A DNA stretch of 64,000 nucleotides. Source: Gammaproteobacteria bacterium (GTDB lineage: Bacteria > Pseudomonadota > Gammaproteobacteria > GCA-002705445 > GCA-002716945). The position numbers were made by a program, and so were the translations under genes. The notes beneath the pieces are model-generated. The model saw nothing but the letters and a program-made list of their open reading frames with translations, was not told the origin of the DNA and did not search any database. The stretch is from positions 701,605-765,604 of the forward strand of contig PBCF01000002.1 of assembly GCA_002716945.1 (NCBI GenBank). The letters are read 5' to 3'. Positions 42,133 to 46,158 of this stretch are shown here, in pieces. Numbering within the stretch: position 1 is the first letter of the stretch; every line of letters begins with the position of its first letter.

Positions 42133-43125
42133 TTTAGAATTTCTATGTACAATATTTTCTAAAGCTTGAATAAATGTTTTATTCTCATTAATACATGGTA
42201 TATATTCAAATTTTTTCCCATTTGACTTCAAAAATAATTCTTTTGATTCATCATTAATTTCTTCGAGTGTTTCCAAACAATCTGATACAAATCCTGGACA
42301 AAATACTTGAATATGATTTATTCCTTCAGAAGGTAATTGTTTTAATCGTTCACTTAGATATGGTTTAATCCACTCAGAAAAACCAAACCTAGACTGAAAA
42401 ACTATTTCATATGAACCACGATCTAGATTTAAATATTTAGCAATTGAATTCGCTGTAGTTATACATTGTTTTTTATATGGTTCATCTTTTCCTAAATAAG
42501 ATTTAGGTATACCGTGAAATGAAAATAATATTTTTTGACATGATCCATTTTCATTTTGAAATTCTGAGATAGTCTCTGCAGTAGATTTAACATATAAATG
42601 TTCTTGAAAAAAATCTTTTACCAATTTTAGATTTAGACTTGAATATTTAGCTTTTTTATTAAAAATATCACGTATTTTTTCTTCAATAGATTTGGTTGTT
42701 GTTGTTGAATATTGAGGGAACATAGGTACCACTATAATTTCTCTATATCCTTCGTCATATAAAAAATTTATTTTTGATTCTATTGAAGGCGTACCATATC
42801 TCATAGCATATTCTACTTTAAAATTTTTTGATTCATTTTTATTGAGATTTTCTTGAAGAAGTCTTGCTTGTTTTTTTGTATGTACTAAAAGTGGCGAACC
42901 ATCATCTGTCCAAATTTTTTTATATAGTTGTGCACTTTTTTGTGGCCTGGTGTTCAGTATAATTCCATATAAAATAGGTATCCATATTAATCTTGGTATA
43001 CGTATTACATATTTATCCATTAAAAATTCTTTTAAATATTCTCGTACTTCAGGGGTGTTTGGTTTATCAGGCGTTCCAAGGTTAATTAAGAGAACGGCTA
43101 TATCATCTCTTTTGTTAGCATTCAT
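42127..43125 (-). CDS. hemH: Ferrochelatase
   Basis: LLINLGTPDKPNTPEVREYLKEFLMD, FSFHGIPKSYL, CPGFVSDCLETLEEI. Confidence 0.97.
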   Translation of the reverse strand: MNANKRDDIAVLLINLGTPDKPNTPEVREYLKEFLMDKYVIRIPRLIWIPILYGIILNTRPQKSAQLYKKIWTDDGSPLLVHTKKQARLLQENLNKNESKNFKVEYAMRYGTPSIESKINFLYDEGYREIIVVPMFPQYSTTTTKSIEEKIRDIFNKKAKYSSLNLKLVKDFFQEHLYVKSTAETISEFQNENGSCQKILFSFHGIPKSYLGKDEPYKKQCITTANSIAKYLNLDRGSYEIVFQSRFGFSEWIKPYLSERLKQLPSEGINHIQVFCPGFVSDCLETLEEINDESKELFLKSNGKKFEYIPCINENKTFIQALENIVHRNSKL

Positions 43126-43145
43126 ATGATTATTTTAGAGTATTA

Positions 43146-43730
43146 TTAATAAGTTGTGTATCTTTCAAATAAGGGGCTTGTCTTTGAAATATGGGACATT
43201 AAAAATTCCATTTGATCAGTCAGTATTTTTCGTCCTCTTAGAATTAAGTATTCTACTCTAGATGGACTAAATGGAATTGCAAGAAGAAGCATTTTGGCAT
43301 CTTCTGGCGTTTTTCCTCCTTTGTGGTTATTACATCTCCTACATGCTGTAACGACGTTTGTCCATGAATCAGTTCCTCCCAATGATATTGGTAACACATG
43401 ATCTCTAGATAAATCCTTAACTAAAAATACATCCCCGCAGTACATACAAGTATTGGCGTCACGTTTAAATAACGTCACATTTGTTAGAGGTGGAGTGTAC
43501 GCAGAATAGTCCAATTTTGTATGATTTCTCGTCGCAATGATGGAGTTTAATGAAATACTACTCTGTCTGCTTAACACCCTATTATACCCGCCTCTAATAA
43601 GCATAGAAGACGATCCACATTCGTATGCAATCTGGTCATTGCAATATAAACGTACAGCTGTCTGGTAATTAATCCATCCCGTAGGCTGGCCAGCTGAATT
43701 TAGCCTGAGTATTTGTTGATTGCCTTGCAT
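43146..43730 (-). CDS. HNH endonuclease family protein
   Basis: CMYCG...LSRDHVLPISLGGTDSWTNVVTACRRCNNHKGGKTPEDA. Confidence 0.9.
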   Translation of the reverse strand: MQGNQQILRLNSAGQPTGWINYQTAVRLYCNDQIAYECGSSSMLIRGGYNRVLSRQSSISLNSIIATRNHTKLDYSAYTPPLTNVTLFKRDANTCMYCGDVFLVKDLSRDHVLPISLGGTDSWTNVVTACRRCNNHKGGKTPEDAKMLLLAIPFSPSRVEYLILRGRKILTDQMEFLMSHISKTSPLFERYTTY

Positions 43731-43886
43731 AATAGCTTATAGTCCATATATTAAGTTTTAGTGAAACACTATTATATGCACTTAAACGAAACAATAAAAT
43801 ATTAATATCATCTAATCATCAATAAAAAGCGCTAAATGGCAGCGTTTAAATTAAAATTTAAGATAATTTTGTAATAAATAGGGACT

Positions 43887-44096
43887 TTATCAACAGGTTG
43901 TATGATAAGTAATAAAACATTAGTTTATTTGAAATCATCTGATTTAATATAAATATTTAACAGATAAGTTGTTGATAATTATATGAATATCAAATTGATT
44001 ATAAATTGTACGATTTGGTGAACATCAACTGATTAATCAATTAGATAGAAAAAATGACTGTTTTTCCACAATTTTATCCACAAAATCTGTGGATAA
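43887..44096. other. Cluster of DnaA-box-like 9-mers (candidate replication origin or DnaA-binding locus)
   Basis: TTATCAACA 43887-43895(+), TGTTGATAA 43970-43978(-), TTTTCCACA 44062-44070(+), TTATCCACA 44074-44082(+), TGTGGATAA 44088-44096(-). Confidence 0.55.
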
Positions 44097-44157
44097 TTAC
44101 ATTTCAAATTTTATACAAAATACAAAAAAAATAATCAAAAATGTATAATTTAAAATT

Positions 44158-46158
44158 ATGGCGAATATTGTCAATGTAGTACTGGATATACCAATTTATC
44201 ATTCTTTTGACTATTCTCTCCCCAAAGGTATGCAGAAATTGCAATCGGGTGTTAGAGTTGAAGTTCCATTCGGCAAAAGAAAATCTATAGGTTTGGTTAT
44301 ATCTAAAAAGAATGGCGCATCTCTCAATAATAATGACAAATTTAGTCTTAAAGAGATTATCTCGGTTATTGATAAAGAGCCAATATTAGATAAAAGTATA
44401 ATGAATTTATGTGAGTGGAGTGCAGATTATTATCAATATCCGCTTGGGCAAGTTATATTTACAGCGATTCCTCCTATATTAAGAAAAGGAAGATTAATAC
44501 AATCAATTAAAGAGAAAAAAAATGATTGTATTATATCTAATATAAAAAAACCTATAAAATTAAATGATGAACAAAATGCAATTTTTTCACAAATAATCAA
44601 AAATTTAAACAAATTTAAAAGTTATGTAATTGAAGGCATAACTGGAAGTGGTAAAACAGAATTGTATATAAAGATTTCTGAGTATATTTTATCTCAAAAT
44701 TCTCAAATACTCATAATAGTGCCTGAAATAAATTTAACACCACAAACAGTACAAAGATTTCAAAAATATCTTAATTATAATATTGAGACATATCACTCAT
44801 CTTTAACAGAATCAAAAAAATTAGGAATATGGTCAAGATGTAAAAAAGGGGAAATAGATATAGTTATAGGTACAAGATCATCTTCTTTTTTACCATTCAA
44901 AAATTTAAGTTTGATCATCGTTGATGAAGAACATGATAGCTCTCTTAAGCAACAAGAAAAATTTAGATACCATGCTCGTGATATTGCGATAGTTAGAGCA
45001 ATGAAGAGCAACATCCCTGTAATATTAGGAAGTGCAACCCCTTCATTTGAAACATTACAAAATTGTCATAACAACAAATTTATTAAATATGAATTAACAA
45101 AAAGATATCACAAAACTGCCCTACCTAAAATTATGATAATAGATACTAATATTGATGAACCCATAGATGGTATTTCAAGTGAATTAGAAAAAAACATTAA
45201 ATCAGAATTAAAAGACAAAAAACAGATTTTATTATATATAGGTAGAAGAGGTTTTAGTCATGCATTGATGTGCAAAAACTGTGACTGGATAAGTAAATGT
45301 CATAAATGTGATTCATATATGACCTATCATGATGTTTCTAAAACTTTATGGTGTCATTATTGCGGATATAGAAAAAAATTCAGTCAAAAAAAATTATGTG
45401 ACTGTCAGGAGAACTGTAATATAGTTCCTGTTGGATATGGAACTGAAAGAATTGAAAGAAGACTCAATGACTTGTTCCCAGATGCAAGAATAATGAGGGT
45501 AGATAGTGATACTATAACAAATAATAAAAAACTAATTGAATTTGTAGATAAAACAAATACAGGAAAAATTGATATACTTGTTGGCACACAAATGTTAGTA
45601 AAAGGACATGATTTTCCAAACGTTTCACTTGTTGGAATAATTGATATTGACTCTGGTTTGTTCAGTTTAGATTTTAGAGGATTGGAAAAAACTGCTCAAT
45701 TAATTACACAAGTATCTGGTAGATCAGGTAGACATAATGTTCAAGGTAAAGTAATTATACAAACAAGAAAACCAAATCATCATTTAATACTCGAACTTCT
45801 TAAAAATGGTTATAAAAATTTTTCAGCAAAAGCTCTAGTAGAAAGAAAAGAGGCATCATTGCCACCTTTCAGCTATATTGCTCTTCTTAGATCCTCATCA
45901 TATAAAAAAAATGATTGTCAAAACTTTTTAGAAAATATAAAAAATTATTTTCAAAATGACTCTAATGTCAATTTCTTTGGACCCGCTCCAGCACCAATAG
46001 CTAAGAAAAATAATAAATATTCATATCAAATGATGATAAGTTCTCTAAATAGAAAATTTTTACTACTAAAATCTTATCAAATAAGAGAATATATATTAAA
46101 AAGAAAATTAAATAACATAAAATGGTCAATCGATATTGATCCTATAGATTTATATTAA
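44158..46158 (+). CDS. priA: Primosomal protein N' (PriA helicase)
   Basis: EGITGSGKTELYI, VDEEHDSSLKQQEKFRYHARDIAI, Cys-rich zinc region, VSGRSGR. Confidence 0.97.
   Translation: MANIVNVVLDIPIYHSFDYSLPKGMQKLQSGVRVEVPFGKRKSIGLVISKKNGASLNNNDKFSLKEIISVIDKEPILDKSIMNLCEWSADYYQYPLGQVIFTAIPPILRKGRLIQSIKEKKNDCIISNIKKPIKLNDEQNAIFSQIIKNLNKFKSYVIEGITGSGKTELYIKISEYILSQNSQILIIVPEINLTPQTVQRFQKYLNYNIETYHSSLTESKKLGIWSRCKKGEIDIVIGTRSSSFLPFKNLSLIIVDEEHDSSLKQQEKFRYHARDIAIVRAMKSNIPVILGSATPSFETLQNCHNNKFIKYELTKRYHKTALPKIMIIDTNIDEPIDGISSELEKNIKSELKDKKQILLYIGRRGFSHALMCKNCDWISKCHKCDSYMTYHDVSKTLWCHYCGYRKKFSQKKLCDCQENCNIVPVGYGTERIERRLNDLFPDARIMRVDSDTITNNKKLIEFVDKTNTGKIDILVGTQMLVKGHDFPNVSLVGIIDIDSGLFSLDFRGLEKTAQLITQVSGRSGRHNVQGKVIIQTRKPNHHLILELLKNGYKNFSAKALVERKEASLPPFSYIALLRSSSYKKNDCQNFLENIKNYFQNDSNVNFFGPAPAPIAKKNNKYSYQMMISSLNRKFLLLKSYQIREYILKRKLNNIKWSIDIDPIDLY

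Follow-up and report, generated by a model that had tools for sequence, protein, structure and literature searches.

The gap before priA in the window (the whole stretch of 64,000 nucleotides that was analysed, C4:701605-765604 of a genome in six contigs) is probably not a replication start but a DnaA-recharging switch. On its sequence features, we consider it likely that a DnaA-reactivating site resembling DARS2 occupies a new locus here, with the order of the Fis and IHF sites reversed relative to Escherichia coli. DARS1 and DARS2 of E. coli convert ADP-DnaA to ATP-DnaA; DARS2 requires IHF and Fis, and DARS1 works without them.

The gap is bordered by a gene for an HNH-domain protein of 194 aa (43146-43730, minus strand; PF14279/PF01844), divergent from priA, and by priA itself (44158-46158, plus strand; replication-restart helicase PriA, 666 aa; TIGR00595, 557.8 bits against a cut-off of 230). 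At 427 bp (43731-44157), it is the longest stretch free of open reading frames in the 64-kb window, as an earlier note on this DNA had stated; the runner-up measures 235 bp. All five DnaA-box-like 9-mers listed in that note were found again in the gap at the positions it gave. One of them, TTATCAACA at 43970-43978 (minus strand), was not kept as a DnaA box, because the box is not conserved and the IHF consensus overlaps it. Another copy of TTATCAACA, at 43887-43895 (plus strand), lies 175 bp upstream of the core described below; in the family it reads TTATYAACA and is conserved at -175 from the core, or at -185 in one genus.

The core itself (44062-44096) reads TTTTCCACA-ATT-TTATCCACA-AAATC-TGTGGATAA, with N3 and then N5 spacers, and comprises the two facing boxes 5 bp apart and the adjacent box that the note had described. 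Box III (TTTTCCACA, 44062-44070, plus strand) could be aligned in 22 family members; box II (TTATCCACA, 44074-44082, plus strand) follows 3 bp past box III in the same orientation; box I (TGTGGATAA, 44088-44096, minus strand, where it reads TTATCCACA) is inverted, 5 bp past box II, so that the core pair is head-to-head. AT-richness spans the whole intergenic region. A terminator-like hairpin at 44074-44096 was rejected, being the inverted box pair itself with a poor T tail, and an RNA element was likewise rejected, no Rfam match being found in 43000-45000.

DARS1 and DARS2 have been described as three boxes with identical spacing and an inverted box I, the head-to-head pair being essential (PMC5742627; PMC10380432). 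As read from the fetched E. coli loci, their cores are TAATACACA-TGG-TTATCCACA-GGAAT-AGTGGATAA (DARS1) and TTCTTCACA-ACT-CTATCCACA-GAAAA-GGTGAATAA (DARS2); the double boxes of both loci agree with the ChIP-seq table in PMC11317965. Spacing (3/5) and orientation of the window core are identical to those of both. The inverted third box is absent from the E. coli polA, purH, datA, oriC/mioC, nrdA, and nrdD loci, and the E. coli priA upstream region holds no close triple; the 3/5 geometry discriminates DARS, because the seven other E. coli loci tested are without it. With DARS2 (rppH-mutH intergenic), the window site shares the three-box core, its spacing, the inverted box I, the intergenic position, IHF and Fis consensus matches on the box III side, and a host that encodes Hda, IHF, and Fis. 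It differs from DARS2 in lying between an HNH gene and priA instead of next to mutH, in having three boxes much nearer consensus, and in being the only DARS core in its genome. With DARS1 (bioD-uvrB intergenic), it shares the core geometry and a position upstream of a DNA-maintenance gene.

The box cluster is beyond chance. Single boxes occur at chance level, both as near-boxes in the window (29 observed, 25.2 expected) and as exact boxes genome-wide (21, against 19 for the reversed control). The core triple has one mismatch in 27 at the fixed N3/N5 geometry, against 8 or 9 for the best N3/N5 triple that each of 20 shuffled 64-kb windows yielded, and is the sole triple with three or fewer mismatches in the 1,089,911-base genome. 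A DnaA-box density scan over 599 kb of sampled sequence gave this cluster the highest score (7), the next separate cluster scoring 3. Clustered exact boxes were found at priA only, in the own genome and in seven related genomes. This singularity, together with a distance from dnaA of about 11-12% of the chromosome, speaks for a pure titration site, a cluster of strong boxes soaking up DnaA as datA does in the old sense of that locus. We judge such a role quite improbable, because three boxes bind little DnaA and because titration would work without precise spacers of 3 and 5 bp and without Fis and IHF sites at set positions. Like the window site, datA is a group of DnaA boxes away from oriC, accompanied by an IHF site, but it promotes ATP hydrolysis, and its boxes lack the N3/N5 inverted geometry, with no head-to-head third box at 5 bp.

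Conservation in relatives, one of the checks proposed in the earlier note, was found throughout the family: the triple precedes priA in 22 of 22 genomes (21 relatives and the own genome), with 0-3 mismatches in 27. In all 22, box I is the priA-proximal box and reads TGTGGAWAA; TTATTAACA also serves as box II in some family cores. The DNA immediately flanking the core is far less conserved in the family than the core. The HNH and hemH neighbours are also conserved upstream of priA in the family. The HNH protein (61-75% identity across the family, between hemH and priA) resembles IscB/Cas9 to some degree in their HNH region; its gene is not thought to be part of the element. The sequence TATAAT at 44144-44149 (plus strand), 8 bp before the priA ATG, is conserved in the family and on this conservation is the probable -10 element of priA; its position suggests that the priA mRNA may be leaderless or nearly so.

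Beyond the family, a class-wide sample yielded the triple (two or fewer mismatches) in 7 of 27 other gammaproteobacterial priA upstream regions; the upstream DNA of triple-bearing priA loci in the class has 41-68% G+C where measured. When searched for independently of priA, the strict triple was present in 13 of 369 class genomes, in eight of these 13 directly before priA, and the exact head-to-head pair was present in 101 of 229 (reversed control, 0). Twelve of 30 inspected pairs lie at priA, and in nearly all inspected pairs a third box follows at a distance of exactly 3 bp; the remaining pair loci are near other genes (among them hemW, lon, tdk, and rsmA; names from sequence inspection, not from profile search). 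At such class loci, including L125, L133, and L152, many of the DARS-like triples are accompanied by Fis and/or IHF matches at the same offsets, and some sit downstream of genes; one locus (L094, genome G029) has a tandem pair of triples before priA (-466 and -194). The same module is present at unrelated loci, and its conservation is therefore not tied to one promoter.

Alternatively, the constant place before priA in many genomes could stem from a function in the expression of priA. In that case DnaA, together with Fis and IHF, would act on a priA promoter and tune PriA supply to the replication cycle, the DARS-like spacing being incidental; the element always faces priA just upstream of the conserved -10 element, and E. 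coli DARS1 likewise lies upstream of a repair gene, uvrB. This explanation appears unlikely to us, because the core stands at no set distance from the priA start (about 40-70 bp within the family and as much as about 470 bp outside it) while the internal spacings are fixed, because the same module occurs away from priA at places not obviously upstream of genes, and because no inverted third box is present in the E. coli DnaA operators tested. The DARS and priA-promoter roles could also coexist.

Further conserved blocks upstream of the core were taken from the family alignment. A Fis-binding consensus match (GATTATAAATTGTAC; no strand assigned) lies at 43997-44011, 65 bp upstream of the core start; the consensus used, GNNYANNNNNTRNNC, is that cited in PMC4585315, and it is matched exactly at -65 in 20 of 22 family members. 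An IHF-binding consensus match (TATCAACAACTTA, minus strand) lies at 43965-43977, 97 bp upstream of the core start; the consensus WATCARNNNNTTR is matched at -97 on the minus strand exactly in five of 22 family members and with one or no mismatch in 17. The offsets recur in 41 gammaproteobacterial loci of other genomes, priA-linked or not: Fis matches number 21 at -67 to -64 and six over the other 182 offsets, IHF matches nine at -100 to -97 and two over the other 184 offsets, the shuffled means at those offsets being 0.07 (Fis) and 0.03 (IHF). No other independent evidence supports the DARS-like reading as strongly as this common spacing of predicted sites across unrelated genomes. IHF and Fis sites flanking the core, as in DARS2, are thus represented by consensus matches at fixed offsets, that is, by predicted sites. 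At -65 and -97, E. coli DARS1 matches neither consensus. The order in E. coli DARS2 is core, IHF sites, Fis sites (PMC4245941), with consensus matches for IHF at -71/-87 and for Fis at -125, whereas the window has core, Fis (-65), IHF (-97). The window site is a variant and not a copy of DARS2, because the Fis/IHF order is reversed; this nearer position of Fis, opposite to that in DARS2, was counted against the DARS2-like reading, as was the fact that only a minority of sequences match the IHF consensus exactly.

The earlier note had proposed 43731-44157 as oriC. The locus does hold the densest DnaA-box cluster found, in AT-rich DNA, and no perfect-box cluster lies near dnaA. We nevertheless regard a chromosomal origin here as extremely improbable: strand bias, parAB, two parS-like sites, and dnaA point to an origin on another contig. 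The note itself had remarked that dnaA, dnaN, gidA, and rpmH are not near priA, and all four are indeed on contig C3 (gene order recF-dnaN-dnaA|rpmH-rnpA-yidD-yidC-mnmE-gidA, with parA and parB beyond gidA). The two parS-like sites (C3:52488, TGTTTCACGTGGAAAA; C3:52953, GGTTTCACGTGAAACA) lie about 3 kb from dnaA, inside recF or close to it. GC skew in the own genome, read from sampled stretches and not from the full sequence, turns from positive to negative around C4:350 kb; between about C4:755 kb and 820 kb, from just past priA to the contig end, it is negative, and an origin at priA is disfavoured, because it would make the skew positive there. The relative G001 (780,947-base contig) was used for skew because the own contigs are unordered. 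In its sampled stretches, the skew and the direction of the genes switch at dnaA (53 kb), not at priA (181 kb), and switch back at 550-600 kb (near 570 kb), about half of the 1.1 Mb away. The distance from dnaA to priA is 123.7-128.2 kb in G001, G005, G010, and G013. If C4 runs on from its end into the start of C3, the own genome would have the two genes 130 kb apart.

The box arrangement also argues against an origin at priA, the head-to-head pair being a DARS signature and not the head-to-tail arrangement of oriC (PMC10380432). In the dnaA-dnaN intergenic region (C3:54526-54706; L036:4526-4706), DnaA boxes that are weak and conserved in part, together with an AT-rich tract ahead of dnaN, were seen in seven family members; the region is a candidate oriC, though without perfect-box clusters. 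No E. coli-type dif site was found within three mismatches in genome G000, and the terminus signal of the lineage may differ from the E. coli type. As a fallback, the earlier note had allowed for a DnaA-binding locus other than oriC, which was the right direction but missed the specific architecture of a DARS core.

The partners of a DARS are encoded in the genome. An Hda-like protein is encoded beside purM (172.6 bits, cut-off 194.8), IhfA after pheT (133 bits, cut-off 111), IhfB after rpsA (112.5 bits, cut-off 115), and HU after lon; a Fis-like protein of 86 aa scores 69.8 bits (cut-off 99). The Hda and Fis scores fall under NCBI's curated cut-offs, which weighs against the DARS2-like reading, and the neighbours pheT, rpsA, lon, and purM were named by sequence inspection. 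Domains III-IV of DnaA are 62% identical to those of E. coli DnaA; R227, D269, R285, R334, R399, and T435 are kept, and L290 is replaced by M. DnaA thus retains most of the residues on which DARS depends, and the kept residues include ones tested for DARS function in PMC4245941.

For the DARS2-like reading, we infer the steps beyond these sequence features from E. coli; that the proteins bind, that ADP is released, the timing of these events, and a possible side effect on the transcription of priA are all put forward by analogy. Hda and the sliding clamp would generate ADP-DnaA after initiation, and ADP-DnaA would bind the three core boxes. DnaA on boxes II and I would meet head to head, the AAA+ domain would be distorted and ADP released, with box III stabilising the DnaA complex. 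Nucleotide-free DnaA would then depart and bind ATP, so that active initiator is available again for the following round at oriC. IHF (about 97 bp upstream) and Fis (about 65 bp upstream) would introduce bends in the DNA and permit the reaction, as they do in E. coli DARS2, and would gate it by growth phase and cell cycle.

DARS/DnaA reactivation has, to our knowledge, been studied almost only in E. coli. DARS itself is already known. The DARS2 core is described as conserved in relatives of E. coli at the E. coli position (PMC4245941), and many proteobacteria are reported to carry DARS1/DARS2-like sequences (PMC10380432). No link between DARS and priA was found in the literature searched, the original 2009 DARS paper and homologue list lying outside that search. 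The three-part design recurs before priA in many distant bacteria without described switches of the DARS kind. As a tentative proposal, in which we place somewhat less than even trust, an ancient gammaproteobacterial DARS module (core, Fis at about -65, IHF at about -97) would have its commonest home in the priA promoter region, E. coli DARS1 and DARS2 would be its relocated and rearranged descendants, and the site at priA may couple DnaA recharging to PriA supply. If the priA site and its counterparts in many distant gammaproteobacteria do act as DARS, the ADP/ATP-DnaA cycle would be a general gammaproteobacterial control; core geometry with Fis and IHF at fixed offsets would give a sequence rule for finding DARS; and even a streamlined 1.1-Mb genome would keep a DARS-like module as its only clustered DnaA site.
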